DNA from: Candidatus Krumholzibacteriota bacterium | GTDB taxonomy: Bacteria > Krumholzibacteriota > Krumholzibacteriia > Krumholzibacteriales > Krumholzibacteriaceae | DNA length: 64,000 nt | Direction of reading: 5' to 3' | NCBI GenBank assembly: GCA_016932415.1 | Contig: JAFGCX010000029.1 | Location: forward strand, 6,384-70,383 | Part shown: piece after piece, positions 18,784-52,792 of the stretch | Position numbering within the stretch: position 1 is the stretch's first letter | How the letters are laid out: each line of letters starts with the position of its first letter | Translations under genes and position numbers: made by a program | The notes under the pieces: model-generated | What the model saw: only the letters and a program-made list of their open reading frames with translations | What the model was told of the DNA's origin: nothing | Databases searched by the model: none

Positions 18784-18821
18784 CTGAAGTAATTTCCTCC
18801 GGAACACAGAAAATATTTCCC
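18784..18821 (+). promoter_or_regulatory. Tandem 15-bp activator site candidates upstream of flgF
   Basis: CTGAAGTAATTTCCT (18784-18798) and CAGAAAATATTTCCC (18807-18821) start 23 bp apart. The right halves fit the shared GGGAAA...TTTCCC pattern well and the left halves fit less well. They lie about 120-155 bp upstream of the -24 GG of the flgF promoter. Confidence 0.45.
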
Positions 18822-18924
18822 CCCCTTAATCATTGGACTGAACGGGGTTTTTTGCCGCCTCGACCGCGTGGTCCATGTAACATCAATTCATTAATAGCAA
18901 TACGGTATTCAAAGGCTTTCGGGG

Positions 18925-18938
18925 GGGACTATAGTCCC
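18925..18938. promoter_or_regulatory. Perfect 14-bp palindrome abutting the flgF promoter
   Basis: GGGACTATAGTCCC is fully self-complementary and ends 3 bp before the sigma-54 -24 element. Its position would let a bound protein block or help polymerase, so it is an operator candidate. Confidence 0.45.
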
Positions 18939-18940
18939 AC

Positions 18941-18956
18941 AGGCATATCTCTTGCC
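18941..18956 (+). promoter_or_regulatory. Sigma-54 promoter of the flgF-csrA unit
   Basis: AGGCATATCTCTTGCC has GG at 18942-18943 and GC at 18954-18955, 10 bp apart. The predicted transcription start near 18967 leaves a short 17-nt leader to the flgF ATG. The core GGCATATC-NN-TTGC is shared with the promoters at 43515 and 52804. Confidence 0.75.
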
Positions 18957-18983
18957 GTGTATAAAGCGCAATGGAGGATAACT

Positions 18984-19682
18984 ATGCTTAAAGGAATATC
19001 GATGGCCGCCAGGGCGATGAAAAATCAGGTGGCCAGAAATGACATGATCGCCAACAACCTGGCAAACATAAATTCAGCTGGATTCAAAAAGGATTTTGCT
19101 GTCTTTGCGGAGCAGAAGACCGACTCCGGCCTGATCGATACGATCGTGAAAGTCGCTACTTCCTTCTCACAGGGGCAGCTGACGAGGACTGAAAGGCCGC
19201 TCGATGTCGCGATACAGGGTGATGGATTTTTCGTCATAGAGACGGATGAAGGTGAGATGTACACGAGAGACGGATCCTTTACAGTCAACTCCGAGGGAAA
19301 TCTGGCCACGAGCAACGGACAACTTGTCGCCGGCAGTATCGCCATACCTCCGGGCGAGATAGAAATTTCAAGAGAAGGCAATATCCGCGTCGATGGAATC
19401 ATCACCGGGCAGTTGAGGATCGTCCGTTTTGATGAGACTTCCAGTCTTGAGAAAGCGGGGTCTTCGCTTCTTACCGCTCCGGACGACATTTCACCGACAG
19501 ACCTGGCTCCTGAAGAAATAACAGTACTCTCGGGATTTCTGGAAAACAGCAATGTCGAGGTCATCTCGGAGATGACGGAAATGATAACCGCGCTTAAAGC
19601 GTATGAGATCAGTCAGAAAGCGCTTAAATCGGAAGACGAGATATTACATATGCTGACATCGACCGTGGGAAAGACCGGTTGA
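18984..19682 (+). CDS. flgF: Flagellar basal-body rod protein FlgF
   Basis: This 232-residue proximal rod protein is exported by the flagellar type III apparatus. The N-terminal flagellar basal-body rod motif is present ('DMIANNLANINSAGFKKD'), as are the conserved middle 'QGDGFFVIETDEGEMYTRDGSF' region (in part, near residues 74-95) and the C-terminal 'ALKAYEISQKALKSEDE'. The frame is open upstream to 18852, but ATG 18984 has GGAGG 6 bp before it and gives the normal family start. It is the first gene of the first large flagellar unit, behind the sigma-54 promoter, and flgG follows 55 bp later. Confidence 0.93.
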   Translation: MLKGISMAARAMKNQVARNDMIANNLANINSAGFKKDFAVFAEQKTDSGLIDTIVKVATSFSQGQLTRTERPLDVAIQGDGFFVIETDEGEMYTRDGSFTVNSEGNLATSNGQLVAGSIAIPPGEIEISREGNIRVDGIITGQLRIVRFDETSSLEKAGSSLLTAPDDISPTDLAPEEITVLSGFLENSNVEVISEMTEMITALKAYEISQKALKSEDEILHMLTSTVGKTG

Positions 19683-19737
19683 TAAGATAAGAAAGCGGAA
19701 AAAGGGCAATGACAGGAATAATCAGGGAGAATAAGTC

Positions 19738-20526
19738 ATGATAAGAGCACTATCGACAGCATCGTCGGGAATGCAGGCCCAGCAGATATTTATCGACAAT
19801 ATCGCCAATAATCTCGCGAACGTTAACACCGCTGGATTCAAAAAATCCCGGGTAGAATTCCAGGACCTCATGTATGAAAGCGTCGCTCCGGCCGGTTCGT
19901 CCCGATTGACCGGCTCTGCCGAACCTTCATTCAACCAGGTCGGTCATGGAGTGAGGTTGTCGGCGACGACGAGAGTGTTCCAACAGGGTTCTTCGATGAA
20001 CACGGAGAATCCACTCGACATGATGATCGCCGGTGACGGGTTCTTCCAGGTGTTGCTTCCGGACGGGAGTTACGCTTATACCCGCGATGGATCCCTGAAA
20101 CTCGATTCCGATGGAAATATCGTCACCGCGTCCGGCTTCCAGGTAGAGCCCGCGCTGACTCTTCCACGAGAGACGACAGACCTTATGATTGCGGGGGACG
20201 GGATGATTTCAGTCCTTCTTCAGGCAGAAGAAACACCCGCTGATCTTGGCCGGTTCGAGCTTGTGCGCTTCCAGAATCCGGCAGGGCTGAAAAGCATAGG
20301 AAACAATCTCTTTGTCGAAACAGTATCGAGCGGTACGCCGGTACTGGGCAATCCTGGAGAAGAGGGGCTTGGTACGATGCAGATGGGGTTCCTCGAAATG
20401 AGTAACGTCAGCGTCATCGAAGAGATGATCGGGATGATAACGGCCCAGAGGGCGTATGAAATAAATTCAAAAGCGGTGAAGACTTCGGAAGAGATGCTTG
20501 GTATAGCCGCCAACCTTAAACGATAG
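19738..20526 (+). CDS. flgG: Flagellar distal rod protein FlgG
   Basis: The 262-residue product forms the distal rod that passes through the P and L rings. It has the rod N-terminus 'MIRALSTASSGMQAQQ', then 'IANNLANVNTAGFKKS', the central 'IAGDGFFQVLLPDGSYAYTR' and the C-terminal 'GMITAQRAYEINSKAVKTSE', all typical of FlgG. Length equals that of enterobacterial FlgG. The ATG follows AGGGAG. It sits between flgF and flgA as in many flagellar operons. Confidence 0.96.
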   Translation: MIRALSTASSGMQAQQIFIDNIANNLANVNTAGFKKSRVEFQDLMYESVAPAGSSRLTGSAEPSFNQVGHGVRLSATTRVFQQGSSMNTENPLDMMIAGDGFFQVLLPDGSYAYTRDGSLKLDSDGNIVTASGFQVEPALTLPRETTDLMIAGDGMISVLLQAEETPADLGRFELVRFQNPAGLKSIGNNLFVETVSSGTPVLGNPGEEGLGTMQMGFLEMSNVSVIEEMIGMITAQRAYEINSKAVKTSEEMLGIAANLKR

Positions 20527-20538
20527 AGAATCTCTGCC

Positions 20539-21492
20539 ATGAAAAGAAAAAACGGGGCGTTAATAATTGTAGCGGTAATGCTTTCTACTTGTAGCGCGCT
20601 TGCTTCGGCCGAAGTCTACACGCTTCGGGAGATCGTTGTGACCGAAATGACTTTACTGAAGCTTTCTGATCTCGTAGTCGAGCCTCTGAAAGGGTCGGAC
20701 GATCCGGTAATCGCCGAGTCACCGCCCTGGGGATCGCAGAAAAGCCTTTCAAGGAATTTCATCGCCGACCGCGTCAGATCCCTTGGTATCGAGCTGACTG
20801 GCAATACGAGGGTACAGGTAAAACGGTTGATGTTTGAGAAGTGCGATGAACTTCTCGACTTACTGAAAAAAGATATGGCCTCCGCCCTCAAAGAATCAAA
20901 ATGGAGCGAAGGCGCTGAAAGAATAGAAATGGAGATCGTAAACTTTCCATCATCGATAATGACACCTCCCGGCCAGCTCGCTCTTGAGATCGATTTTCCT
21001 AAGAACATACATGGATACCAGGTAGTCTCTTTTACTCTGACCGGCAAAGACGGTTTTAAAAGAAGATATTCCACGGGGTGCAGGTTCCATCTTGTCGACA
21101 GGTGTGCCGTGGCGGCAAGGGATATTAAAAGAGGCGAAGTTGTCGAAACGGGTGATATCGAATGGGTCGAGGCCGATCTTGCCGTCTGCGGCGAGCTGCC
21201 AGTGACGGACCCGGCTGATATACGAGGAATGCGTATAGACCGCTACATAAGGAGCGGCGATATGATACCTCTCAAAGCCATCGAACGCATTCCGGTAGTG
21301 ATGAAAGGTCAGACAGTCAAGGTCGAGATCTCGAGGGGACTCATGGTTGTCAGCGCGAACGGCGTCTCTCTTGAGGATGGATGGATCGGAGACATGGTAC
21401 TTGTGCGGAACCTGGCATCTGGAAAGATCGATAAGTATCAGGTAGTAGACAAGGCGAAGGTATCCCCTCCGGGGTCGGAAGCGGGCAGGTAG
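20539..21492 (+). CDS. flgA: P-ring assembly chaperone FlgA
   Basis: The 317-residue periplasmic protein helps FlgI assemble into the P ring. A Sec signal peptide ends near 'SALASAEVY'. The C-terminal half has the SAF-like domain ('AVAARDIKRGEVVETGDIEW', 'GMRIDRYIRSGDMIPLKAIE') and the closing 'VKVEISRGLMVVSANGVSLEDG' region (in part), all FlgA features. The N-terminal region (residues 25-180) is longer than in E. coli FlgA. It lies 12 bp after flgG and 5 bp before flgH. Confidence 0.9.
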   Translation: MKRKNGALIIVAVMLSTCSALASAEVYTLREIVVTEMTLLKLSDLVVEPLKGSDDPVIAESPPWGSQKSLSRNFIADRVRSLGIELTGNTRVQVKRLMFEKCDELLDLLKKDMASALKESKWSEGAERIEMEIVNFPSSIMTPPGQLALEIDFPKNIHGYQVVSFTLTGKDGFKRRYSTGCRFHLVDRCAVAARDIKRGEVVETGDIEWVEADLAVCGELPVTDPADIRGMRIDRYIRSGDMIPLKAIERIPVVMKGQTVKVEISRGLMVVSANGVSLEDGWIGDMVLVRNLASGKIDKYQVVDKAKVSPPGSEAGR

Positions 21493-21497
21493 AGATT

Positions 21498-22073
21498 ATG
21501 AAGAAAAGTATGATCGTGGCGGTTCTCTTCCTTGTGACGATAAGTTCGGTCGCTCATTCCCAGCGCCCCTTGTGGGACAGCGATGAGGGTTCACTCTATT
21601 CGAACCTCAAGGGATACAGGGTCGGTGATGTCGTTACTGTGATCATTCAGGAACAGTCATCCGCTTCAAGCAGCGCGAAGACAGATACCAAGGTAAAAGC
21701 GGAAGCGACAAGCGGTCCGGGCGTCGGCAGCCTTGACTTTATCTCCCTTTGGGGGCTTACGAGCGAGAACAAGTACAAGGGGGACGCCAAGACATCGAGG
21801 GCTGGACAGCTCTCCGCGCGGGTGACGGTGAGAATAACCGAGATACTCGAAAACGGAGATTATCTGATAGAGGGCAACCGGGAGGTCAATATAAACGGGG
21901 AACGCGAGAGGATAACGCTCAGCGGCATCATCCGTTCAAGGGATATCAGCACTGATAATACGATCCTGTCGACTTACGTAGCCGACGCGAGGATCATGTA
22001 TGACGGAAAAGGCACAGTTGATTCCGGGCACGAACCCGGGATCCTCACGAAACTCATAAACTGGATCTTTTAA
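21498..22073 (+). CDS. flgH: Flagellar L-ring protein FlgH
   Basis: The 191-residue product forms the outer-membrane L ring. The family core is clear: 'LKGYRVGDVVTVIIQEQSSA', 'GDAKTSRAGQLSARVTVRI', 'NGDYLIEGNREVNINGE' and 'RSRDISTDNTILSTYVADA'. In most proteobacteria FlgH is a lipoprotein. Here the signal peptide ends in 'SSVAHSQRPLW' and no Cys is present, so it is probably cleaved by signal peptidase I and not acylated. It starts 5 bp after flgA and is followed by flgI. Confidence 0.94.
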   Translation: MKKSMIVAVLFLVTISSVAHSQRPLWDSDEGSLYSNLKGYRVGDVVTVIIQEQSSASSSAKTDTKVKAEATSGPGVGSLDFISLWGLTSENKYKGDAKTSRAGQLSARVTVRITEILENGDYLIEGNREVNINGERERITLSGIIRSRDISTDNTILSTYVADARIMYDGKGTVDSGHEPGILTKLINWIF

Positions 22074-22087
22074 AGGAAGTATAAAAA

Positions 22088-23221
22088 TTGCACGGAACAA
22101 TCAGGAATCATTACAGGGGAGTTCTTCTGACGGTCTTTCTCCTGATCCTCTTTCATCTTTACATGCCCGTCAGGGTCTGCGGAACGGTCCGGATCAAGGA
22201 TGTGACTTCGGTAGCCGGCGTCAACAATGTCCAGCTTATAGGTTACGGACTGATTGTGGGGCTTAACGGCACCGGAGACGGGAGCAAGAGCGCCTTTACA
22301 GTAAATTCGATAGTAAGCATGCTTGAAAAACTCGGAATGACAGTATCAGCTGATGATATCAAGGTGAAAAACGTCGCCGCGGTCGTTGTCACCGCTGAAT
22401 TGCCGCCATTTACTCCTGTCGGAACGAGGCTCGACGTCACAGTCTCTTCCCTCGGCGATGCGAACAGCCTCGAGGGAGGACAGCTTCTTCTGACTCCGCT
22501 CAGAGCGTTCGACGGGTCCAATTACGCCATAGCGCAGGGAGCAGTCTCAATCGGCGGATTCAATATCGATGCCGGAGCTGGAAATGTCCTGCGAAAGAAT
22601 CATTCCACTGTAGGCAGGGTCCCACAGGGAGCGATAGTAAGGAAAGAGCAGGAATGCGAGCTGGCAAAAGGAAACAAATTCACTCTTACTCTCGACGATC
22701 CCGATTACCAGTCCGTGACGAACATAACGAATATCATAAATATCACTCTCAGGAAAAAGCTCGCTTACGCGGTGAGCTCCAGGGCGATAGAAGTAAGGGT
22801 CCCACCGGAGTATGAGCTGAATCCGGTAGCGATGATCGCTGATATCGGAAGGATGGAGGTCACTCTTGACAAGGTCGCGCGGGTAGTGATCAACGAGAGG
22901 ACAGGTACAGTGGTGATCGGTGGCCTCGTCTCGATCGACGAAGTCGCGATCGCTCATGGAAATCTCCAGGTAGAGATCAAGGCGAACTACGGAGTGAGCC
23001 AGCCGATGTCGTTCGGCGAGGGCCAGTCAATCGTGGTTCCAGAGATAGAGACGAAGGTAGAGGACAAGGAAGCGAGGCTGTTCGCGATAAGAAAATCGAA
23101 TACCGTCAGCGATATAGCTTCAGCCCTGAATGAACTCGGGATAACTCCGAGAGACATGGTAGCGATATTTCAGGCGCTAAAGATCGCGGGAGCCCTCAAG
23201 GCCGACCTGGTGATCATGTAA
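22088..23221 (+). CDS. flgI: Flagellar P-ring protein FlgI
   Basis: The 377-residue periplasmic protein forms the P ring around the rod. Recognisable parts are 'RIKDVTSVAGVNNVQLIGYG', 'GLNGTGDGSKSAFTVNSI', 'NVAAVVVTAELPPF', 'VNERTG'-type 'VINERTGTVVIGG' and the C-terminal 'LNELGITPRDMVAIFQALK'. The start is a TTG at 22088 with AAGGAAG 8 bp upstream. Starting at the next ATG would remove the signal peptide (VLLTVFLLILFHLYMPVRVCG). It is encoded between flgH and flgJ in the same unit. Confidence 0.95.
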   Translation: MHGTIRNHYRGVLLTVFLLILFHLYMPVRVCGTVRIKDVTSVAGVNNVQLIGYGLIVGLNGTGDGSKSAFTVNSIVSMLEKLGMTVSADDIKVKNVAAVVVTAELPPFTPVGTRLDVTVSSLGDANSLEGGQLLLTPLRAFDGSNYAIAQGAVSIGGFNIDAGAGNVLRKNHSTVGRVPQGAIVRKEQECELAKGNKFTLTLDDPDYQSVTNITNIINITLRKKLAYAVSSRAIEVRVPPEYELNPVAMIADIGRMEVTLDKVARVVINERTGTVVIGGLVSIDEVAIAHGNLQVEIKANYGVSQPMSFGEGQSIVVPEIETKVEDKEARLFAIRKSNTVSDIASALNELGITPRDMVAIFQALKIAGALKADLVIM

Positions 23222-23234
23222 AAGGAATGGCGAG

Positions 23235-23699
23235 ATGAAGATACAGATGAATCCGCAGATCAGACCGGTTCAGGCAGAGTCATCCGGCGCCGCGCGTACG
23301 AAAAGCCTGGAAAAAGCAGCCCGGGATTTTGAATCGATACTGATCGGACAGTTTTTTCAACTGATGCATTCTACCGTGTCGGATGAGGGAATGGTGGAGA
23401 AATCGTTCCCGAGAAAGATCTACGAAGAGATGATGCAGGGCGAATTTGCCAGCGAATTCACGAAGCGGGGAGGTTTTGGCCTTTCCGAAGTCCTTGTGGA
23501 CAGGTTCAATCGCGGCCAGGGTGGTGAGGCGGCGACTGTTCCGGGAGCGTTACCGGGAAATACCGGGCGAGAGGCCCTTCCACTTGGAAAGAAAGATCGC
23601 TTTATGAAGATTGGATCTGAAAATGATCAAAATACGAATAGCAGGATGATTTCATTGAATGAAATCTACAAAGGCCAGAAAGCCGTTGATAGAAAGTGA
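23235..23699 (+). CDS. flgJ: Rod-binding protein FlgJ, short form without muramidase domain
   Basis: The 154-residue product matches only the N-terminal rod-cap domain of FlgJ: 'ARDFESILIGQFFQLM', 'FPRKIYEEMMQGEFASEF' and 'RGGFGLSEVLVDRF'. The C-terminal peptidoglycan hydrolase domain of enterobacterial FlgJ is absent, so a separate enzyme must open the cell wall. None is seen in the window. The C-terminal 50 residues are polar and not conserved. It sits 13 bp after flgI. Confidence 0.88.
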   Translation: MKIQMNPQIRPVQAESSGAARTKSLEKAARDFESILIGQFFQLMHSTVSDEGMVEKSFPRKIYEEMMQGEFASEFTKRGGFGLSEVLVDRFNRGQGGEAATVPGALPGNTGREALPLGKKDRFMKIGSENDQNTNSRMISLNEIYKGQKAVDRK

Positions 23700-23710
23700 G
23701 GCGAGGAAAG

Positions 23711-24244
23711 ATGGCCGTAAGGATCTTGGGAAGCAAGGATATTGAAGACAGGGTCGAGGAACTCTGCGAGATGATGAACGAAGAGGCGTCGGTCTGCAGG
23801 GAGCTTCTTGAACTCTCCCGGATCGAACAGGAATACCTGATGAAGAACGATATCGAAAATCTGTCGGTGAATACCGAGAAGATGAAAAGGATCGTGCAGG
23901 TACTCAAGAGAAATCAGGCCGCGAGACATTCCTATATGGACGACATCGCCATCAATCTGGAAAAAGATGTCGGGACAGTGACGATCAGCGCGATCAGCAG
24001 GGAAGTCGATCCGGAGCTTTCGTCAAAACTCAAAGACACGAGCCGTGAACTGATCAAGGTCGGTGAAAGGCTCTATCGATCAAATCACAACACTATCTAT
24101 CTTATCGATTTTTCGCTCGATCTCCTCGAACAGCAGAACAAACTCTGGGCAGAACTTGTGTCGGATGAGAAGGAAGGATATTCGGCGAACGGTAAGAAGG
24201 GTAACAGGAAAAGTCATCCATTGCTTGTAGAGGAAAAAGTATAA
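23711..24244 (+). CDS. flgN: FlgN-like export chaperone for hook-associated proteins
   Basis: The 177-residue, mostly helical protein resembles FlgN, the cytosolic chaperone that delivers FlgK and FlgL to the export gate. It has an N-terminal coiled coil ('EDRVEELCEMMNEEASVCRE', 'EQEYLMKNDIENLSVNTEK') and a C-terminal helix containing 'ERLYRSNHNTIYLIDFSLDLL', as in FlgN family members. The ATG at 23711 has GAGGAAAG upstream. Its position directly before flgK and flgL supports the assignment. Confidence 0.78.
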   Translation: MAVRILGSKDIEDRVEELCEMMNEEASVCRELLELSRIEQEYLMKNDIENLSVNTEKMKRIVQVLKRNQAARHSYMDDIAINLEKDVGTVTISAISREVDPELSSKLKDTSRELIKVGERLYRSNHNTIYLIDFSLDLLEQQNKLWAELVSDEKEGYSANGKKGNRKSHPLLVEEKV

Positions 24245-24267
24245 CGGTCTTACTGGAGTAAAGTATT

Positions 24268-25635
24268 ATGGTAACGCTTTTCGGTATGCTGGAAATGAAC
24301 AAAAGAAGTCTCTTTACGTCGCAGTTCTCATTGCAGACGACGAACCATAATATCTCCAATATCAATAATCCGGGGTACTCCCGCCAGGAAGTACTGCTAC
24401 AGTCGAATATTCCAACGGTGACGGCGAAAGGGATCCTCGGTAATGGAGTGACGGTCAATACGGTCAGGCGCAGTACGGCCGAGTTTTTTACGAGGCAGAT
24501 CCGGGAAGAGACGGCGTCGATGGGCGGGTGGGAGATGAAGAGCTCGACTCTCTCTCATCTGGAAGTCGTATTCAATGAGCCGAGCGATAATGGCCTGGCA
24601 AGCTGCATCGATGATTTTTTCGTCTCGTGGAATACGCTCGCGTCCCATCCGGAAAGCGGTTCAGCGCGGATAGACATACTCGAATCAGCCAAGACCATGT
24701 GCTCGATGTTCAATTCCATCGATCAGTCACTTGACGAACTTGGAGGAAACATCGATCAGCAGATCGAGGAGGGCGTCGCTCTGGCCAACGATCTTATCGC
24801 GTCGATCGCAGAACTCAATACGATGATCGTGGAAACAGAGGGAGCGGGGCATTCTTCAGGCGATTACAGGGACGAACGGGACAGGCTTCTTAAGCAGTTA
24901 TCGAAGATCGTGCGGATAGACATAAGGGAAGACGAGTTTGGTTCAGTCGATGTTTTCGCGGGCGGGGTCAATATCATACACCGGTCTGAAACGCTGCCTT
25001 TCGAAGCCTATATGGACGATACCGGTGAGATAACGAAAATGCAGGTACGGCTCAGAGGACAGAATGTCAACGTGACATTATCCGAGGGCGAGATCACGGG
25101 GCTTCTGGAATCAAGAGACGGTTATCTCCAGGATGCCAGGCAGGCTCTCGACTATCTCGCCTCCAGCTTTATCACCAGGCTGAATGATCTTCACAACATG
25201 GGATGGACGCCGTATGGAAGCGGATATGATTTCTTTTCCGGAACGGATGCCAGTACGATCAGGGTCAGTGAAGCTATAATCGCGAACTCCGATCTTATAG
25301 CAAGTTCATATGACGGTACTGTCGGGGATAACTCCCTGGCGAACGATATAGTCGCCCTGGCCAATACATGCATATCCGATACAGATCCACTTACTCTTAA
25401 CGAAAGATTCGAGACGATAATCTCCGCGATAGGGATACACAGCGCCAACTCGGAAAGTATGCTGCGCAATGAGGATATGATCCTCTCGAACCTCGAGATG
25501 CGCAAAGAAAGCATAACCGGAGTGAATCTTGATGAAGAACTCGTCAATCTCACCAGGTACCAGCAGTCATACGAGGCCGCGGCAAGGATCATGACGACGA
25601 TCGGCGAGTTGATAGACACGATTCTGGAAATGTAA
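24268..25635 (+). CDS. flgK: Hook-filament junction protein FlgK (HAP1)
   Basis: The 455-residue product joins hook and filament. The N-terminus carries 'TTNHNISNINNPGYSRQEV', followed by 'FFVSWNTLASHPES', 'GDYRDERDRLLKQLSKIV' and the C-terminal 'GVNLDEELVNLTRYQQSYEA', which are FlgK hallmarks. Length is normal to slightly short. It follows the FlgN-like chaperone gene by 23 bp and precedes flgL by 14 bp. Confidence 0.95.
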   Translation: MVTLFGMLEMNKRSLFTSQFSLQTTNHNISNINNPGYSRQEVLLQSNIPTVTAKGILGNGVTVNTVRRSTAEFFTRQIREETASMGGWEMKSSTLSHLEVVFNEPSDNGLASCIDDFFVSWNTLASHPESGSARIDILESAKTMCSMFNSIDQSLDELGGNIDQQIEEGVALANDLIASIAELNTMIVETEGAGHSSGDYRDERDRLLKQLSKIVRIDIREDEFGSVDVFAGGVNIIHRSETLPFEAYMDDTGEITKMQVRLRGQNVNVTLSEGEITGLLESRDGYLQDARQALDYLASSFITRLNDLHNMGWTPYGSGYDFFSGTDASTIRVSEAIIANSDLIASSYDGTVGDNSLANDIVALANTCISDTDPLTLNERFETIISAIGIHSANSESMLRNEDMILSNLEMRKESITGVNLDEELVNLTRYQQSYEAAARIMTTIGELIDTILEM

Positions 25636-25649
25636 TAGAGAGAAGGATT

Positions 25650-27209: not shown

Positions 27210-27236
27210 CAGGACACGGAAAGGAAGGTAGTGGCT

Positions 27237-27707
27237 ATGAAGATCAAATCGAGCCTTTTTGACGAACTTGAATTCGATGAAAAGGATATCATCACGCTCG
27301 AGCAGGGCATGATCGGTTTTGACGGACTGAAGAGGTTCGTCCTTATGGATTTTGCCGATGAATCGGTATTTCACTGGTTGCAGTCGATCGATGAACCCGA
27401 TGTGGGGTTCATAGTATCGGAACCGACGATCTTTGACGGTGATTACACGTTCGTCATCGATCCCGATCTGAAGGATATTCTCAGGATAGAAAAGGAAGAT
27501 GAAGTCGTCGTAATGACGATCGTCACAATCAAGGACAGCGGGAGCAGTGTGACTGGAAATCTGCTCGGCCCGGTCATAGTGAACGCTTCCAGACACGTAG
27601 GCTGCCAGATCGCTCTGGAGCCGGGCAAATATTCTACAGCCACGCCGCTCAGGCAGATCGAAGCGGAACAGATGCAGGATAAAGAAAAAGTCGGGTGTAC
27701 GGCTTAG
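27237..27707 (+). CDS. fliW: Flagellar assembly factor FliW
   Basis: The 156-residue protein binds CsrA and flagellin in a partner-switch that ties flagellin translation to export. Family motifs are '[19 protein letters not shown]', '[19 protein letters not shown]', 'VVVMTIVTI' and '[20 protein letters not shown]'. The ATG at 27237 has AAGGAAGG 8 bp upstream, and a GTG at 27231 is less well placed. Its stop codon overlaps the ribosome site of csrA, so the two are translationally linked. The flagellin genes lie directly after csrA, the classic context for this switch. Confidence 0.95.
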
Positions 27708-27715
27708 GAGCTGAC

Positions 27716-27964
27716 ATGCTCGTTCTTACGAGAAAAATACAGGAAAAGATCGTCATATCGACAGATATTGTCGTAACCATTCTTAATATTGATGGCGATC
27801 AGGTGAAATTGGGTATCCAGGCACCTAAAGATGTCACTGTTCACCGGCAGGAGATCTTCGATGAGATCCTCAGGTCGAACCGCGACGCCCTCCTGCAGAG
27901 AGAAGAAGGCAGTAAAGCTTTAAAGTCGATTATCGGGAAAAGACTTAACGGCAGGAGGCAGTAG
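27716..27964 (+). CDS. csrA: Carbon storage regulator CsrA
   Basis: The 82-residue RNA-binding protein represses translation by covering GGA motifs at ribosome sites. It has the conserved '[14 protein letters not shown]', '[18 protein letters not shown]' and a longer than usual C-terminal tail of about 20 residues, as in FliW-containing bacteria. The ATG at 27716 has AGGAG 5 bp upstream, within the fliW stop region. It ends 170 bp before the first flagellin gene, whose leader has GGA motifs in hairpins. Confidence 0.97.
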
Positions 27965-28077
27965 CAGATGAAGAGATGATCTGTCGGACTCATGTCCGAA
28001 AATAATCAATTCGCGATTAATCAATCGAGTTCTCCAGCCGGCGGGAACCGCTGTCAGGGAATCGGTTTCGACCGGTA

Positions 28078-31747: not shown

Positions 31748-31762
31748 GGGAAAAATTTTCCC
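31748..31762. promoter_or_regulatory. Perfect 15-bp palindrome upstream of fliD (GGGAAAAATTTTCCC)
   Basis: This is the most symmetric copy of the 15-mer found at the flagellar promoters. It lies 28 bp upstream of the -35 of the sigma-28-type promoter of fliD, so here it would act close to a promoter that does not need an enhancer. Confidence 0.5.
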
Positions 31763-31789: not shown

Positions 31790-31816
31790 TAAAGTTGCCA
31801 CCGCCTTGTCCGATAA
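31790..31816 (+). promoter_or_regulatory. Sigma-28 (FliA) promoter of fliD-fliS-fliT-flgM
   Basis: TAAAGTTG (31790-31797), an 11-bp spacer and TCCGATAA (31809-31816) differ from the FliA consensus TAAAGTTT-N11-GCCGATAA at only two positions. It lies 49 bp before the fliD start. Confidence 0.75.
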
Positions 31817-35594: not shown

Positions 35595-35629
35595 AGGCGA
35601 TTTTTTCCCTCCCTGGGAAGAAATATCCC
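35595..35629 (+). promoter_or_regulatory. Tandem 15-bp activator site candidates upstream of the flgB unit
   Basis: AGGCGATTTTTTCCC (35595-35609) and GGGAAGAAATATCCC (35615-35629) both fit RGG-N9-CCC and start 20 bp apart, on the same helix face. The nearer one ends 24 bp before the -24 GG at 35653, closer than usual for an enhancer. Confidence 0.5.
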
Positions 35630-35651: not shown

Positions 35652-35667
35652 TGGCACATTCGTTGCG
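35652..35667 (+). promoter_or_regulatory. Sigma-54 promoter of the flgB-fliJ unit
   Basis: TGGCACATTCGTTGCG matches the sigma-54 consensus TGGCAC-N5-TTGC exactly, with GG (35653-35654) and GC (35665-35666) 10 bp apart. The predicted start near 35678 gives a 26-nt leader. Confidence 0.8.
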
Positions 35668-43358: not shown

Positions 43359-43396
43359 AGGAAATAATCGTCCCGCCCCGGGGGTAAAAATTTCCT
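43359..43396 (+). promoter_or_regulatory. Tandem 15-bp activator site candidates upstream of motE
   Basis: An imperfect copy AGGAAATAATCGTCC (43359-43373) and a better one GGGTAAAAATTTCCT (43382-43396) start 23 bp apart. The second ends about 119 bp upstream of the -24 GG at 43516, a usual enhancer distance. Confidence 0.45.
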
Positions 43397-43514: not shown

Positions 43515-43530
43515 TGGCATATCACTTGCG
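43515..43530 (+). promoter_or_regulatory. Sigma-54 promoter of the motE-fliO unit
   Basis: TGGCATATCACTTGCG has GG (43516-43517) and GC (43528-43529) 10 bp apart. The predicted start near 43541 gives a leader of about 62 nt. The remainder of the 43343-43602 gap shows no gene. Confidence 0.75.
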
Positions 43531-43602
43531 GTCATTCTCACCTGAAAGATTGTATAAAGAAGCTCCGGAAAGCCGGAGATATATCTCATCATCGAGGTAA
43601 AA

Positions 43603-45602: not shown

Positions 45603-45613
45603 GGAGGAATATC

Positions 45614-46261
45614 GTGATTATCAGAGGCGCCAGTTCGAATATCCAGCATTTAACGGAAGTAAATAATGATATCCTCGGCAAGGACGACTTCCTCAAACTG
45701 CTTACTGCCCAGTTGAGTCATCAGGACCCGATGGAACCTCTGGATAATAATGAGTTCATAGCCCAGATGACCCAGTTCAGTTCACTGGAAAAGCTTGAGA
45801 ATATCAACGCGTCGGTCGATTCGGAGCTTATGCTCTCGCAATCGATGAACAACGCCCTTTCCACGACTCTTATCGGACGAAACGTCATTCTCCAGAGCAA
45901 TGTCGTCGATGTCACCGGAGGAGAGTCGATGGGGAGCGGTTTCTATACCGACAAGGCAGGGACGGCTTTTGTGACGATCACGGATTCAAATGGAGAGACA
46001 GTGCGCACGCTCAACGTCGATGTCACGGAGAAAGGGTTTATCGATATCGAATGGGACGCGAAGGACAATCAGGGAAACGACGTATCAGACGGCGAGTTCT
46101 ATCTCAGCATAGAATTCACCGGAGAGGATGGAGTTCAGGCAATGGCCCTGCCGTTCCTTAACGGCCGGGTCACCTCGCTGAAGTTCTATGACGGCAACGC
46201 CTATCTTACAGTGGGGGGGCATGAGTACAACCTGGCGCAGGTAATCGAGATTTCCGAGTAA
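45614..46261 (+). CDS. flgD: Hook cap protein FlgD
   Basis: The 215-residue hook-capping protein shows the N-terminal 'LGKDDFLKLLTAQLSHQDPM' and 'NNEFIAQMTQFSSLEKLENI', followed by a FlgD Ig-like/tudor region ('TVRTLNVDVTEKGFIDIEWD'). It starts with GTG at 45614, 5-6 bp after AAGGAGGA. It sits between fliK and flgE. Confidence 0.95.
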   Translation: MIIRGASSNIQHLTEVNNDILGKDDFLKLLTAQLSHQDPMEPLDNNEFIAQMTQFSSLEKLENINASVDSELMLSQSMNNALSTTLIGRNVILQSNVVDVTGGESMGSGFYTDKAGTAFVTITDSNGETVRTLNVDVTEKGFIDIEWDAKDNQGNDVSDGEFYLSIEFTGEDGVQAMALPFLNGRVTSLKFYDGNAYLTVGGHEYNLAQVIEISE

Positions 46262-46311
46262 AAGGACAGGATGCCGGGCGGAAACCGGCAGTCAAGGAAG
46301 GAGACAGTAAA

Positions 46312-48315
46312 ATGCTGAGATCATTATTCGCCGGAGTGACGGGGCTGACGAACCATCAGCTCAAGCTCGACGTGATAGGCAATAATATTGCCAACATCAA
46401 CACGCTTGGGTTCAAGGCGAGCAGGGTCACGTTCCGGGAGATGTTGACCCAGACTATAAGCGGCGCCTCCAGGCCCAGCGACGGTATCGGTGGAACGAAC
46501 CCCCAGCAGATCGGTCTCGGCTCCTCTGTCGGAAGCATAGACACCGATTTTTCCCAGGGCAATATGCAGATCACCGGGATCATGACCGATCTCGCGATCG
46601 AAGGAGACGGTTTCTTCATCCTCAGCGATGGATACACGCAGCATTACACCAGGGGCGGGGCATTCACTCTCGATGGCAGCGGTTTCATGGTAAATCCCGG
46701 GAACGGGTACAAACTCCAGGGGATCCTGGCCAACGATTACGGCGTGATCCAGCAGGGACAAGGGATCGAGGATATAGCGATCCCGACTTCGATGATCGTA
46801 CCGGCAAGGGCGACGAGCGAGATCAGGCTGACAGGGAACCTGCCGGTCGAATCGGATTCCCTCTGCACGATAACGAGGAGCGAACCGTTCATGGCGGCAT
46901 CCCAGGCTTCCGATCTCCTGATGTCACTCTACAATGAATCAGGGACAAGGGTGGGGCTTCGCGAAGGAGAGGAGATAATGATCTCGGCCGATGTCGGAGG
47001 CACCCATATCGAGACATCATTCACTATCGATCGGGGAAGTTCGATACAGGATCTCCTTGACAGCCTCCAGGCGTTTCTCGGGGCGGAGGATGCCGGAATC
47101 ACCGTCGATCTGAACGCGAACGGTCAGATCGAGGTCACGGCCAATACAGACCAGATCGCTAACCTCTCTTTGCAGGTCAGCGGGAACACCGTTTTCAACA
47201 ACGCTTTTCTGAATGACGATCTGATCCTCGCCGGTGAGACCGGAACTACAAATGACGCTCTCAGGGCTCCGGCGACCTCGGATGACCTTCTCGAGAACCT
47301 CTATTCCGGCGGACTTCCGGTCGGGATAAGCGGCGACCTGACTATCGGCGGAGACCTTGGAGCGACCAAGATCGATTCATCCACTCTCGAATTCGTTCCA
47401 GGCGTGACAACGCTTGGTGACCTCGCCGCGATGATCGACGAATCTTTCAGGATCACATTCGGCAGCGTGGAGATAGATGACCTGGGCAGGATGATCATCA
47501 CCGGCGACGTCGGTTCTGACAGGGAGATCAGTAATATAGATATCTCTTCGGCGGGAGAAAACCTGCCGGCCTTTTCTTTTTCCTCGATCCAGAACGCTTC
47601 CGACGGCGGATCGTTCGACATGACTTCGATGATCTACGATTCCCTCGGAACGACGCACACTCTTACCCTTACCTTTACGAAGATCGACGGCGAGAACGCG
47701 TGGAACTGGGACGCGGCGATAGATGGAGTGGGCGAGATCCTCTCCGGCGGTTCAGGCATCGCGAGATTCACGTCCGACGGCCTTCTTTCCTCCTTCTCGA
47801 TAAGCGGAACGGCCGAAGGAATCCTGATCGATCTGCATAATGAGGCGGAAAACCTCGCCATAACGATCGATCCCGGAGAGATCGGAGCGACATCGAGCCT
47901 CTCGCAGTTCAATGCCAGTTTCTCGGGAAGAATGAACGATATGGACGGGATGGCTATGGGGACGCTCGAGACAGTCTCGATAGACCGGAACGGAGTGATC
48001 AACGGGCAGTTCTCCAACGGGACGAACAGGGACCTCGCGCAGATCGCGATGGGAGATTTCAACAATCCTAGCGGATTGAACAGGGTCGGAGAGAATATGT
48101 TCATAGCAAGCCCGAACAGCGGGATGCCGAACCTTGTCTTCGCGGGAACGAACGCTCGCGGGATGATAACTCCCGGTGAGCTGGAGATGTCCAACGTCGA
48201 CCTCGCCGGCGAATTTACCGAGATGATAATCGCGCAGAGAGGGTTCCAGGCGAACGCTAGGATCATTTCGGTTGGCGACCAGATGCTGACAGAACTTGTC
48301 AATCTGAAGAAATAG
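46312..48315 (+). CDS. flgE: Flagellar hook protein FlgE, enlarged
   Basis: The 667-residue hook subunit has intact rod-hook ends ('GVTGLTNHQLKLDVIGNNIA', 'NINTLGFKASRVTFREML', C-terminal 'EFTEMIIAQRGFQANARIIS') and the FlgE hallmark 'GTTHTLTLTFTKIDGENAWN'. It is well above the 400 residues of the enterobacterial protein. The extra part (about 190-440) contains repeated Ig-like stretches. It is encoded in the motE unit ahead of flbD and motA. Confidence 0.94.
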   Translation: MLRSLFAGVTGLTNHQLKLDVIGNNIANINTLGFKASRVTFREMLTQTISGASRPSDGIGGTNPQQIGLGSSVGSIDTDFSQGNMQITGIMTDLAIEGDGFFILSDGYTQHYTRGGAFTLDGSGFMVNPGNGYKLQGILANDYGVIQQGQGIEDIAIPTSMIVPARATSEIRLTGNLPVESDSLCTITRSEPFMAASQASDLLMSLYNESGTRVGLREGEEIMISADVGGTHIETSFTIDRGSSIQDLLDSLQAFLGAEDAGITVDLNANGQIEVTANTDQIANLSLQVSGNTVFNNAFLNDDLILAGETGTTNDALRAPATSDDLLENLYSGGLPVGISGDLTIGGDLGATKIDSSTLEFVPGVTTLGDLAAMIDESFRITFGSVEIDDLGRMIITGDVGSDREISNIDISSAGENLPAFSFSSIQNASDGGSFDMTSMIYDSLGTTHTLTLTFTKIDGENAWNWDAAIDGVGEILSGGSGIARFTSDGLLSSFSISGTAEGILIDLHNEAENLAITIDPGEIGATSSLSQFNASFSGRMNDMDGMAMGTLETVSIDRNGVINGQFSNGTNRDLAQIAMGDFNNPSGLNRVGENMFIASPNSGMPNLVFAGTNARGMITPGELEMSNVDLAGEFTEMIIAQRGFQANARIISVGDQMLTELVNLKK

Positions 48316-48323
48316 GATGAAGG

Positions 48324-48566
48324 ATGATCAAGCTTACAAGACTCGACGGAAGACAGATAATAATTAACTCCGATCTTATCGAAAGTATCGAGGAGACCCC
48401 CGATACGATCCTGAGCTTCACGACAGGCAGGAAGATGATGGTAAGGGAGAAGCTGGAAGAAGTGTTGAATCTTGTAATGGAATACAGAAGCAGATTTCCG
48501 ATGTACGCCATTCCTGCAGGTGAACAGAAAATCGATCACAACAGGCATGACCGGAACGAGAGTTGA
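48324..48566 (+). CDS. flbD: FlbD family flagellar protein (SwrD-like)
   Basis: The 80-residue protein matches the small FlbD/SwrD family: 'MIKLTRLDGRQIIINSDLIE', 'ETPDTILSFTTGRKMMVRE'. In Bacillus subtilis SwrD raises motor torque. This is distinct from the Caulobacter regulator that is also called FlbD. It lies between flgE and motA, as in Firmicutes and spirochaetes, which supports a motor role. Confidence 0.92.
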   Translation: MIKLTRLDGRQIIINSDLIESIEETPDTILSFTTGRKMMVREKLEEVLNLVMEYRSRFPMYAIPAGEQKIDHNRHDRNES

Positions 48567-48599
48567 CAATGGGTTATATAGAGGATACAGGGGACTGAA

Positions 48600-49379
48600 G
48601 TGGATCTGGCGACTATTATAGGCCTTCTGGTCGGGTTCGGACTGGTGGCATTCTCGATCATTATGGGAGGGAATGCCGCCGGGTTCGTCAACGTCCCGTC
48701 GCTGTTGACGACGGTGGGCGGCGCCTTGTCCGCCACGCTAATAAGTTTCCCTCTCAAGACGATGATGAAAGTGACGAGCATCACCCTGAAGACTATTTTC
48801 CACAAGGATAAATCCCTGTCGGAGTCGATAGGAGTGATCATAAAGTACGCCGAGAAGGCGAGAAAAGAAGGGATGCTATCGCTCGAAGAGGAAGCTGAGA
48901 ATGAAGAGGACCAGTTCCTGAAGAAGGGGCTCATGCTGGCAGTAGACGGGACTGAATCGGAACTGCTCAATACGATAATGGCAAACGAGATCAACGCCGT
49001 CGAAGCGCGGCATGAAGAAGGACAGGGCCTCTTCAAGACGATGGCGACCTTTTTCCCCGCCTTTGGAATGATAGGGACGCTTGTCGGGTTGGTCCAGATG
49101 CTCAGCCAGATGAACGACCCGAGCAAGATCGGTCCGGGCATGGCGGTCGCTCTGCTGACTACTTTTTACGGCGCCCTGGCGGCGAACCTTTTCTGCCTTC
49201 CCCTGGCGGAAAAACTCAAGAGCAGATCGACGAGCGAGGTCCAGAGGATGGAACTGATCGTCGAAGGGATAATGGCTATTAAGTCGGGCGATACTCCGAG
49301 AGTCGTCGGAGAGAAATTAAAATCGTTCATCTCCCCGAAAGACAGGCTTGGCATGGAGAAGGATGACGACAAGGAATGA
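48600..49379 (+). CDS. motA: Flagellar motor stator protein MotA
   Basis: The 259-residue inner-membrane protein forms the proton (or sodium) channel with MotB. Four membrane segments are visible, with 'ATFFPAFGMIGTLVGLVQML' and 'GPGMAVALLTTFYGALAANL' as the MotA/PomA signature, plus a cytoplasmic loop between the second and third segments. It starts with GTG at 48600 and overlaps motB by 4 bp. Length is typical of PomA-like proteins. Confidence 0.96.
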   Translation: MDLATIIGLLVGFGLVAFSIIMGGNAAGFVNVPSLLTTVGGALSATLISFPLKTMMKVTSITLKTIFHKDKSLSESIGVIIKYAEKARKEGMLSLEEEAENEEDQFLKKGLMLAVDGTESELLNTIMANEINAVEARHEEGQGLFKTMATFFPAFGMIGTLVGLVQMLSQMNDPSKIGPGMAVALLTTFYGALAANLFCLPLAEKLKSRSTSEVQRMELIVEGIMAIKSGDTPRVVGEKLKSFISPKDRLGMEKDDDKE

Positions 49380-50119
49380 GAAGGAAGAAAAAGTCTGACA
49401 GTGGAGGAGATGGAGGAGCGCCGGCATGGATGGTGACGTACGGAGACCTTATGTCTCTGCTTCTATGTTTCTTCGTCATGCTTGTAAGCATGTCGTCGAT
49501 GTCTGAATCGAAGTTTAAACAGGCGATGGGATCGCTGCTCGGAGCGCTTGGAGTCATGAAATTTGATTCTTCGATAATGGAACTTGAAAATCCGAATCTC
49601 AGCGGCAAGTACCAGGAAGAGGTAAAGAGGATAGTCAAAGAGTTCGATGATTTCAAGTCGTACGTGATTGATGAAGGGCTTGAGGAATCGATCGAGATCG
49701 TCGAGACTGATGAGGGAATGCTGATAAGAATGGAAAATACGCTGCTCTTTTCATCGGGTGAGGCGGAGATGAACGAATCGGGGCTTGAACTTCTCGCGAG
49801 GGTAGCCGATATCCTGCTTGAGTTCGATGCCGATATAAGAATAGAGGGACACACCGACAACGTACCGATCCATACGGAGAAATTCCCTTCAAACTGGGAG
49901 CTTTCCGCTGAAAGAGCTGTGAAGGTATTGAAATATCTCAACAGGTTCGGGATCCCCGGGAAGAAATTCACCGCGATCGGCAGAGGTGAATACAGCCCGC
50001 TCGTTGAAAACGATACTGAAGAACACAGGAGCCAGAACAGGCGTGTCGAGATATTTGTTGACTATAAGAAGGAATTGAAAAAGCAGGATATCAGGCATTT
50101 TTCCATTCAGGAGGGATAA
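49376..50119 (+). CDS. motB: Flagellar motor stator protein MotB
   Basis: The 247-residue protein anchors the stator to peptidoglycan. A single membrane helix holds the ion-binding Asp in 'VTYGDLMSLLLCFFVMLVSM', and the C-terminal OmpA-like domain has 'ADIRIEGHTDNVPI' and 'LSAERAVKVLKYLNRFGIPG'. The Tyr before the Asp helix and the 'PAWMVTYGDL' start are usual. Ion type cannot be told. It starts inside the motA stop (ATGA). Confidence 0.96.
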   Translation: MRRKKKSDSGGDGGAPAWMVTYGDLMSLLLCFFVMLVSMSSMSESKFKQAMGSLLGALGVMKFDSSIMELENPNLSGKYQEEVKRIVKEFDDFKSYVIDEGLEESIEIVETDEGMLIRMENTLLFSSGEAEMNESGLELLARVADILLEFDADIRIEGHTDNVPIHTEKFPSNWELSAERAVKVLKYLNRFGIPGKKFTAIGRGEYSPLVENDTEEHRSQNRRVEIFVDYKKELKKQDIRHFSIQEG

Positions 50120-50121
50120 AA

Positions 50122-50628
50122 ATGGGTGACGAGGAAAAGACTGAAGAGAAAGCTCCGGAGAAGGTGAAAAAACCATTACTCGGAAATCCTATGATCATGG
50201 TCGCCATAATAATCGTGTTCCAGGCGGCAATAGCTTTCATGATGATAAAGATGCTTGCCCCCAAGCAGGCGGAAGCGACTGATGTCGAACCGAAGGTCGA
50301 GAAGGTCGTGGAGGATTCCGACCCGAGAGGCGAGATCATTCTGATGAGCGACATCGTGATAAACCTGAAGGAAAAGGACAAGCTCTTCTTCCTGAAGGTC
50401 ACGATAGGACTTGAGGTCCCCGACAGCGACGTGAAGGCGGAGGTCACCGAGAGGACTCCCCAGCTCAGGGACGATGTTATCGCCATGATCTCGGGGAAAA
50501 GCGTCAGCGATATCGATTCGCTCGAGGACCGGAACCTGCTGAAGGCGGAATTGACAAGGCGGATAAACGCCTCTTTGCTGTCCGGAGATCTTATCCAGTT
50601 GTATTTTTCGGATTTCGTGATCCAGTAG
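50122..50628 (+). CDS. fliL: Flagellar basal body-associated protein FliL
   Basis: The 168-residue protein has one membrane segment near 30-50 and a periplasmic domain with 'VINLKEKDKLFFLKVTIGLE', 'TPQLRDDVIAMISGKSVSDI' and a C-terminal 'LIQLYFSDFVIQ', which define FliL. It supports the stator and switch. It lies 2 bp after motB and 4 bp before fliM. Confidence 0.93.
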   Translation: MGDEEKTEEKAPEKVKKPLLGNPMIMVAIIIVFQAAIAFMMIKMLAPKQAEATDVEPKVEKVVEDSDPRGEIILMSDIVINLKEKDKLFFLKVTIGLEVPDSDVKAEVTERTPQLRDDVIAMISGKSVSDIDSLEDRNLLKAELTRRINASLLSGDLIQLYFSDFVIQ

Positions 50629-50632
50629 AGGA

Positions 50633-51643
50633 GTGATCGTGGTAGAGGTGCTTACACAGGAGAGTGCGGATCAGCTGATCGATTCGATAAAGAGCGGATA
50701 TATCGATCTCGAATCGTTCGACTTCGGATCAGCTGCCAGGGCGGTACCGTACGATTTTTCGAAACCACACTCTCTTTCGAGGGGTTTCATCAATAATCTG
50801 GCCACTCTGAGCGATGGATTCTCAAAAGCGGCATCGATGACGCTTTCGACATATTTCCGCGGTACCATTACTGTCACACCCCGTGGATCGAGCCACCTGC
50901 TCTTCCAGGAATTCATAGGGATGACGAAGATGCTCTCCTGCCTGGGAATCGTGAACCTTTCCCCGCTGAGAGGGCAGAGCGTGATGAAGATAGATCCATC
51001 GATCGTCTTCTCGCTCGTAGACAAGCTGATGGGTGGAAGGGGTGAGCCGCTCGGGGAAGAGCGCGAATTTACCGAGATCGAGTCAAATGTGGCGCAGAGG
51101 ATCATGAAAAGGCTTCTGGATGACCTGAGAATCGGGGGAGACAGGTTCATAAAACTCGAGCCGAGCGTCTCAAGGATAGAGAACAATCCTGAATTCGTAA
51201 ATATATGCGCCGGAAGTGAGCGGGTGATCGCCCTGCATTTTGATATAAACATGGGTTCCTTCACGGGAGAGATCACATTCTGTATCCCCGTTTCGGCGTT
51301 CGAGTCTGTTATAGATATGTTCGATCCGGTCGATGAGATCCCCGAGAGGACTCCGGCCGAGAAACAGCAGGACAGGAATTTTTTGAAGAACGCGCTGAGA
51401 AAAGTATCACTCGATTTAAGCGTTGAGATAGGAAAGACGGAATTGAGCCTTTACGAAGCGAAAAATCTTAAAAAGGGCGACCTGATCATACTCGATAACA
51501 ACGTCAGGGAACCCGTCGATATCATAGTCGAGGGTATAAGGAAATTCAAGGGTATCCCCGGCCATGTAAGCGGAAAGAAAGCGGTAAGACTTACATCAGT
51601 GAATAATGAAGGAGGAAGCAGTGACGACGCAGAAGGAAAATGA
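50633..51643 (+). CDS. fliM: Flagellar motor switch protein FliM
   Basis: The 336-residue switch protein binds CheY-P and builds the C ring. Parts seen are 'LSRGFINNLATLSDGFSKAA', 'FSLVDKLMGGRGEPLGEERE', 'FTEIESNVAQRIMKRLLDDL' and a C-terminal SpoA domain ('LKKGDLIILDNNVREPVDII'). The N-terminus is a GTG at 50633, with a second GTG six bases later. The CheY-binding peptide usually found at the extreme N-terminus is reduced to 'VLTQESADQLIDSI', a recognisable variant of LSQxEIDxLL. The last 23 bp overlap fliN. Confidence 0.95.
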   Translation: MIVVEVLTQESADQLIDSIKSGYIDLESFDFGSAARAVPYDFSKPHSLSRGFINNLATLSDGFSKAASMTLSTYFRGTITVTPRGSSHLLFQEFIGMTKMLSCLGIVNLSPLRGQSVMKIDPSIVFSLVDKLMGGRGEPLGEEREFTEIESNVAQRIMKRLLDDLRIGGDRFIKLEPSVSRIENNPEFVNICAGSERVIALHFDINMGSFTGEITFCIPVSAFESVIDMFDPVDEIPERTPAEKQQDRNFLKNALRKVSLDLSVEIGKTELSLYEAKNLKKGDLIILDNNVREPVDIIVEGIRKFKGIPGHVSGKKAVRLTSVNNEGGSSDDAEGK

Positions 51644-52175
51644 GAAGGCCGGAGCCATGAACGGCGCCGACGCGTCCGAAGAGGCCAGCGCCAGGGCGGC
51701 GGGGGACGCGGCCGGTGAAATGTCTGAAGCAACCGGCGCCGCGGAGGGCGGAAAAGGCGATTACCCGCCCGCACAGTCTGGAAGCGATCTGATAGACAGC
51801 GAAGCCGGTGCCGTCGATGAATCGATATCGACTGTGATAAACGAACTGGAAAAGAATAATGTCACCACCGAAGACGCGCTCGAGGAATTCCACGTCGCCG
51901 ACGTGCAACGCCCCGTGAATCGTCCGGCGAGGACCGACGACAATATCGATCTGCTTATGGACGTGAACGTGACGCTCAGGGTCGAGCTGGGAAGAACGAC
52001 AAGATCGATAGAGGAAATAATGAGCCTGAATCCGGGAATGGTGATAGATCTTGACAGGAAAGCGGGCGACAATGTCGACCTCTTTCTCAACAGGAAACTT
52101 TTCGCCAGGGGAGAAGTGACGGTGGTAGAGGGTAATTTCGCGGTCAGGATAACCCAGCTGATAGGCCGGATATAG
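51621..52175 (+). CDS. fliN: Flagellar motor switch protein FliN
   Basis: The 184-residue switch subunit ends with the SpoA domain: 'LLMDVNVTLRVELGRTTRSI', 'MVIDLDRKAGDNVDLFLNRK', 'GNFAVRITQLIGRI'. The N-terminal 95 residues are Ala/Glu/Gly-rich and probably disordered, longer than in E. coli FliN. The GTG at 51621 has GGAGG 5 bp upstream and is preferred to ATG 51606. It overlaps fliM by 23 bp. Confidence 0.95.
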   Translation: MTTQKENEKAGAMNGADASEEASARAAGDAAGEMSEATGAAEGGKGDYPPAQSGSDLIDSEAGAVDESISTVINELEKNNVTTEDALEEFHVADVQRPVNRPARTDDNIDLLMDVNVTLRVELGRTTRSIEEIMSLNPGMVIDLDRKAGDNVDLFLNRKLFARGEVTVVEGNFAVRITQLIGRI

Positions 52176-52187
52176 AAAGGTATAATC

Positions 52188-52628
52188 ATGTTTGTCAGGA
52201 CCGGACTCGTATTGTCATTGATGATCGTTCTTTTATCGATCGCCGGAGATATCGGCGCCGCTGAAACCGATTCGATCCTTCCCAGCGCGGGAAGGATACT
52301 GATCGCCTGTCTGATCGTGGCGATGCTTATTTACGCGTCGATCTTCATGCTGAAAAAGCTCTTCTTCAAGGGGAGCGGCAGGGTAGCGGGATCGATAAGC
52401 ATGGTCGGATCATATCCGATGGGACAGAGGAGCAGGCTCTGCCTCGTCGAAGTGGCGGGCAAGGTCCTGCTGCTCGGTATAACTCCCCAGCAGATATCCA
52501 GAATAGATGAATTCGAACCATCGGAGATAGAAGAGATCGAAAAGCCATCCAAAGTCAAATCGTTCATAAAACATCTCCAGGATTTCTCGGCGAAGCAGGA
52601 TGTTGCAAGAGGATCATCCACTGGTTGA
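52188..52628 (+). CDS. fliO: Flagellar export gate assembly protein FliO
   Basis: The 146-residue protein has a hydrophobic N-terminal signal, a second membrane segment near 37-58 and a small cytoplasmic domain with 'SYPMGQRSRLCLVEVAGKVL' and 'LLGITPQQISRIDEF', which is the FliO pattern. FliO helps FliP assemble into its ring. It closes the motE unit, and fliP begins a new unit 275 bp downstream. Confidence 0.88.
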   Translation: MFVRTGLVLSLMIVLLSIAGDIGAAETDSILPSAGRILIACLIVAMLIYASIFMLKKLFFKGSGRVAGSISMVGSYPMGQRSRLCLVEVAGKVLLLGITPQQISRIDEFEPSEIEEIEKPSKVKSFIKHLQDFSAKQDVARGSSTG

Positions 52629-52644
52629 ATATTTTACCGCGGCC

Positions 52645-52678
52645 GCCGGGGTCCTTCCCGGCCGCCCCACCGGCCGGG
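52645..52678 (+). terminator. Overlapping hairpins after fliO
   Basis: CCCGGCCG (52657-52664) pairs with CGGCCGGG (52671-52678) in a perfect 8-bp stem with loop CCCCAC. Alternatively GCCGGG (52645-52650) pairs with CCCGGC (52657-52662). The two structures exclude each other. No T-run follows. Confidence 0.45.
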
Positions 52679-52756
52679 AGACAGATCGGGAATCAATTGC
52701 CAGAAACCGGTGATAAACCTATCATAACACCTTTAAAAAAATAACGATATGGAACC

Positions 52757-52792
52757 GGGAAATATCTGCCCGAATTCGCGCACTATTTTCCT
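52757..52792 (+). promoter_or_regulatory. Tandem 15-bp activator site candidates upstream of fliP
   Basis: GGGAAATATCTGCCC (52757-52771) and the half-matching GCGCACTATTTTCCT (52778-52792) start 21 bp apart, two helical turns. The second ends 12 bp before the -24 GG at 52805. Confidence 0.45.

Follow-up and report, generated by a model that had tools for sequence, protein, structure and literature searches.

The window analysed here, a 64,000-nucleotide stretch of a Candidatus Krumholzibacteriota genome (GenBank assembly GCA_016932415.1, contig JAFGCX010000029.1, positions 6,384 to 70,383 of the forward strand), carries a series of flagellar operons preceded by a shared 15-bp palindrome, referred to below as the box. 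A preliminary description of this DNA had placed ten copies in non-coding sequence, and we found all ten 15-mers where it had placed them, 10 of 10 in non-coding DNA and, as it had also stated, each ahead of a flagellar or putative modification unit (the flgF, fliD, flgB, motE-like/fliK and fliP units, and a methyltransferase/glycosyltransferase/hybrid-kinase unit). Throughout, G000 denotes the genome under study, other G-numbers denote comparison genomes and C-numbers denote contigs; box scores come from a position weight matrix (PWM) that we built solely from box sites in related genomes.

Sigma-54 promoters (TGGCAY-N5-TTGC or near variants) start in the window at 14121, 18941, 35652, 43515 and 52804, all on the plus strand, with the main box located 176, 134, 37, 133 and 47 bp upstream, respectively. 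The modification unit carries the box AGGAACTATTTTCCC (13945..13959; PWM 17.1), measured to the -24 element of the sigma-54-type promoter TGGCACATCTCTTGT (14121..14135), whose TGGCAC-N5-TTGTT form is found likewise in G015 and G010. Ahead of the flgF-G-A-H-I-J-N-K-L-fliW-csrA operon, the main box (18807..18821; PWM 17.2) and an upstream copy (18784..18798; PWM 11.5) precede the promoter AGGCATATCTCTTGC (18941..18955), which is kept in relatives. The flgB-C-fliE-F-G-H-I-J unit has two boxes at -57 (35595..35609; PWM 12.9) and -37 (35615..35629; PWM 13.1), and we read its promoter as TGGCACATTCGTTGC (35652..35666). For the motE-like/fliK unit, with promoter TGGCATATCACTTGC (43515..43529), the main box stands at -133 (43382..43396; PWM 18.6) and an asymmetric upstream copy, with a strong GGAAA half and a degenerate other half, at -156 (43359..43373). 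The fliP-Q-R-flhB-A-F unit, with promoter TGGCATATCTATTGC (52804..52818), has its main box at -47 (52757..52771; PWM 15.4) and a second copy at -26 (52778..52792; PWM 9.3). The tandem arrangement, put at about two helical turns in the preliminary description, is therefore seen at the flgF (23 bp; 18784/18807), flgB (20 bp; 35595/35615), fliK (23 bp; 43359/43382) and fliP (21 bp; 52757/52778) promoters; it does not extend to the 13945 box, whose weak partner is 44 bp off at 13989 (PWM 10.7), nor to the single perfect box at 31748 (31748..31762), which has no neighbouring copy and starts 42 bp 5' of the fliD promoter, a sigma-28 and not a sigma-54 promoter (TAAAG-N15-CCGATAA; 31790..31816, plus strand). 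As inverted-repeat sites, usually in tandem, near a -24/-12 promoter, the boxes have the sequence features of sigma-54 enhancers (upstream activating sequences).

The motif had been rendered as RGG-N9-CCC/CCT with an A/T-rich centre. We retain the A/T-rich centre, but the proposed ends fit imperfectly at four sites: 18807 reads CAGAAAATATTTCCC and 18784 reads CTGAAGTAATTTCCT, neither beginning with RGG, while the 43359 copy ends in TCC at its 3' side and the 52778 copy starts with GCG at its 5' side. By itself, RGG-N9-CCY matches 69 places in the window, which makes it too loose unless the A/T-rich core is required. With the consensus RGGAAAWWWTTTCCY, each window position matching at 13 or more of 15 bases belongs to the ten sites or lies 1 bp off one of them. 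Base counts over 34 sites give A or G before GG in 29/34, C or T after CC in 32/34, and as third base A at 22 sites and C at 6, leaving GGNA-N5-TNCC as the core. Scored with the relatives-only matrix, non-coding DNA of the window has 6 matches of at least 13, compared with a mean of 0.26 (maximum 2) across 200 rounds of dinucleotide shuffling, and the 58 kb of coding DNA has 1.

We compared these promoters with those of flagellated relatives from the same family or order (G015, G010, G004, G023 and G022, with G005 added for flgF), wherever their contigs covered them. Among named relatives, by contrast, none comes closer than 56% identity in FliI. Boxes recur ahead of flgF in G015, G010, G005, G023 and G004, ahead of flgB (both copies) in G015, G010 and G004, ahead of fliK in G015, G010, G023 and G022, and ahead of fliP in G015, G010, G022 and G004; the modification unit has them at the equivalent place in G015 (in tandem) and G010 (a perfect copy). 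Most are tandem, at distances nearly equal to those in G000: the spacing of about -133 at fliK is repeated in four relatives, where the left half of the upstream copy is also kept, tandems occupy the equivalent place at flgF, and the second fliP copy has equivalents. This conservation, reaching up to five relatives at orthologous promoters, indicates that the sites are real, and the concern that the weaker second copies had been over-aligned can be dismissed, as they too are kept. The fliD sigma-28 promoter is present in both G010 and G015. G010 retains only a decayed form of its box; in G015 the box is perfect, and this genome additionally has a second partial box inside the spacer of this promoter.

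The predicted link to sigma-54 flagellar promoters extends beyond the window. G000 encodes rpoN, and with the relatives-only matrix all seven of its flagellar sigma-54 promoters score 13.1-18.6, whereas 25 of the 26 other TGGCAY-N5-TTGC sites in the genome score at most 11.0, so that in front of sigma-54 promoters the box separates the flagellar ones well. At the sole exception, C14:32255, two boxes (18.2 and 10.9) lie 21 bp from each other. This promoter precedes a gene for a 1038-aa protein with Big_1 and FlgD_ig domains (L269:1123-4236, minus strand), and the unit is a possible additional, non-structural member of the flagellar regulon. Two weak boxes (11.0 and 10.9), spaced by 22 bp, are also found at C36:62576, where a sigma-54 promoter precedes the gene of a GAF-histidine kinase.

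Among the roughly 21 full-length NtrC-type activators of G000, one is encoded with flagellar genes: a 457-aa protein (C1:71917-73287, minus strand) whose gene directly follows that of a 284-aa protein and precedes fliA. Its Pfam architecture (receiver, AAA+ and Fis-type helix-turn-helix domains) and its setting are those of FlbD/FlrC-type regulators, its receiver residues appear canonical by eye, and the 284-aa protein carries HATPase_c, making it a histidine kinase that forms with the activator, at gene level, a FlrBC-type pair. In Vibrio cholerae, the FlrBC kinase-activator pair drives sigma-54 flagellar promoters and, via FliA, sigma-28 genes. Compared by gene arrangement, the G000 locus resembles this system in its kinase-activator pair and proposed sigma-54-then-sigma-28 cascade, and differs in that fliA comes after the activator gene, with a sigma-54 promoter and a box of its own. 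At the promoter of the kinase-activator operon, one box lies upstream and another a short way downstream; G010, G015 and G022 keep all boxes and sigma-54 promoters of this kinase-activator-fliA locus.

The distribution of this activator follows that of flagella. Close orthologues (67-71%) are found solely in flagellated G010, G015 and G022; the next-best matches are members of the class at 43-52%, mostly beside flgB in the flagellar cluster, and in these distant class members the activator gene lies just 5' of flgB. Two further activators flank the locus, and clear orthologues of both turn up in all the genomes tested. In the flagellum-less G001 (same genus), G011 and G007 these two are adjacent to one another, with the kinase, the activator, fliA and the boxes all missing, such that relatives with and without flagella provide a natural presence/absence experiment. 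In a phylogenetic tree, the activator shares one clade (support 100/88) with activators from flagellar loci of the class and of Zixibacteria, Brocadia, Nitrospirota and Nitrospinota; the other 20 G000 activators fall outside this clade. Its helix-turn-helix motif GISVRTLRNK is identical throughout the order and in almost every member of the class.

The preliminary description had not recognised the motif as the known NtrC or FleQ box. This stands: FleQ/FlrA-type and NtrC boxes are also inverted repeats at sigma-54-linked promoters, but their half-sites differ (GTCA-N6-TGAC for the FleQ/FlrA-type box of DVU2894; PMC4641369) and they constitute another motif. The box does, however, have a known relative. 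The FlbD homologue DVU1063 of Desulfovibrio vulgaris has the motif GGCAxxxxTGCC (Rajeev et al. 2011; PMC3333781), the Caulobacter crescentus FlbD ftr elements are quoted as CCCGGCA-N5-TGCCGGG, and the GGCA/TGCC half-sites have been validated experimentally for both proteins (PMC3333781). Our 34 sites share the ftr-type core frame GG-N-A-N5-T-N-CC; they depart from it in the third base, mostly A here (GGAA...TTCC) where ftr has C, and in lacking the Caulobacter-type CCC...GGG flanks. Since the frame is shared, the third base relaxed and the flanks missing, sequence comparison makes the box a near variant of FlbD's known ftr box, relaxed towards A at its third base.

The resemblance to Caulobacter extends to a 13-bp inverted-repeat frame at sigma-54 flagellar promoters of several operons and an NtrC-type activator; unlike Caulobacter FlbD, the protein here has a canonical-looking receiver and an adjacent kinase gene, and it reaches 371.6 bits against the NCBIfam FlbD equivalog model (NF050807), below the curated cut-off of 750, for which reason we dropped its assignment as an FlbD equivalog. 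With DVU1063 it shares the half-site frame and targets, and the downstream site at the kinase-activator promoter recalls the DVU1063 sites located 40-70 bp downstream of promoters (PMC4641369); the lineages are unrelated, the DVU1063 receiver is described as atypical and its box has C as third base. The original question thus ends in a confirmation with a known relative, not in a surprise.

We also found the box outside the order. In distant class members, fliK promoters carry tandem GGNA-N5-TNCC cores at a spacing of 21-23 bp, the pair starting 111-143 bp upstream in those genomes whose promoter could be placed; this tandem is found at p of about 0.013 or less in 14 of the 19 distant class genomes having this activator type, and tandems at flgB promoters appear in two Zixibacteria (p about 0.01) and five Chitinispirillia (p about 0.003), all p-values being based on 300 shuffles apiece and uncorrected for the number of loci. 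Three genomes lacking this activator type in their flagellar cluster (G051, G052 and G057) have no fliK tandem, and one Nitrospinae and one Brocadia locus that we checked had no tandem. A search of open papers turned up no previous account of this box from any of these phyla. These findings suggest that the FlbD-type box has a greater age and a wider spread than the two documented cases that we found in the literature. We lean, by somewhat better than an even chance, towards tandem GGNA-N5-TNCC sites and RTLRNKL-type activators forming an ancient flagellar enhancer code across the class, Zixibacteria, Chitinispirillia, Desulfovibrio and Caulobacter, with only the third base drifting; were it that wide, flagellar sigma-54 regulons of uncultured bacteria and phyla would become predictable, readable directly from sequence.

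Taken together, what the sequence shows directly (boxes, promoters and their conservation, and a regulatory locus that goes together with flagella) points, with high probability, to the palindromes being enhancer sites for the lineage's flagellar sigma-54 activator, the response regulator at C1:71917-73287. That part of the preliminary description has gained comparative support, though with copies in other phyla the site is not private to this lineage. The regulator is the likely binder; its binding of the boxes we infer, as we do its phosphorylation by the kinase, its activating role, and autoregulation together with its sign. In the mechanism we propose, the adjacent histidine kinase would phosphorylate the activator, whose dimers would bind boxes two helical turns apart and thus on one face of the DNA, favouring oligomer assembly. 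ATP hydrolysis would then open sigma-54 RNA polymerase at the flgF, flgB, fliK, fliP, putative modification-unit and fliA promoters, after which FliA (sigma-28) would transcribe late genes such as fliD. With a box on either side of its promoter, the kinase-activator operon may be autoregulated. A cis-element, its probable activator and a sigma-54-to-sigma-28 cascade are in this way linked in an uncultured lineage from sequence alone.

Several observations weigh against this assignment. The fliD box precedes a sigma-28 promoter. G004, G005 and G023 have flagellar genes, and their incomplete assemblies yielded no close orthologue of the activator; five distant class genomes with the activator type (G026, G030, G034, G037 and G054) have no significant fliK tandem. 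At the GAFTGA loop, the four orthologues of the order all have GSFTSA, where class relatives have GAFTGA or GAFTNA. The matrix sites were picked by eye as box-like, albeit in other genomes, which introduces selection bias, and in four of the seven flagellar promoters the -24/-12 elements depart from the consensus and were recognised partly by context. Finally, the preliminary description had expected a genome scan to find the motif above chance density; taken literally, as the density of single boxes, this expectation fails in G000, with 164 matches vs. 126 in the reversed control at 2 mismatches and 28 vs. 15 at 1 mismatch. Of 22 non-flagellar matches that we inspected, most lie within open reading frames and only C14:32412 is near a sigma-54 site. 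Because single-box density is near chance, specificity resides in tandem boxes positioned by a sigma-54 promoter and not in the single box.

Given some 21 NtrC-type activators, a different one could bind the boxes, most obviously either of the two flanking the locus, which are encoded beside boxes and have similar HTH_8 domains. Both are also encoded by relatives that have no flagellum and lack the intervening boxes, and we rejected them as binders for this reason; the middle activator alone accompanies flagella and clusters with the activators of flagellar loci, leaving this explanation very unlikely. We consider it about as unlikely that the boxes are operators of a regulator other than a sigma-54 activator, such as a repressor or nucleoid protein, that merely shares the flagellar promoters. 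Proximal boxes at -26 to -57, the box before a sigma-28 promoter and the one downstream of the kinase-activator promoter would suit an operator, while the tandem helical spacing, distal positions near -133 and co-occurrence with the activator speak against it, as does the match to the FlbD/DVU1063 box, since DVU1063 itself has downstream sites.

Hardly credible, in our estimate, is that the palindromes arose by chance in A/T-rich sequence or serve to terminate transcription where operons end. A terminator was suggested by the box at 31748, which lies after flaG and is followed by TTTTTT, and we dropped it because the G015 fliD box has no T-run, and a separate G+C-rich hairpin precedes that box; chance would accord with the genome-wide frequency of single boxes and is contradicted by the excess over shuffled non-coding DNA and by positions and spacings conserved in relatives. 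The enhancer-site assignment accounts best for the tandem boxes at sigma-54 flagellar promoters.

A few further features deserve mention. A second palindrome, RGGACYNNRGTCCY (18925-18938), abuts the flgF -24 element; it is exact at the equivalent place in five genera (G000, G015, G010, G005 and G023), absent in G004 and without genome-wide enrichment in our scan, and is possibly an operator. Whole-genome scans with a loose box gave 258 matches vs. 57 in the reversed control in G010 and 166 vs. 38 in G022, a 4-5x excess far above that in G000. Within the modification unit (14187-18756), homologues of the glycosyltransferase-TPR and hybrid-kinase genes are also found near the activator-flgB cluster of distant class members, suggesting a role for these genes in flagellin modification and flagellar signalling.

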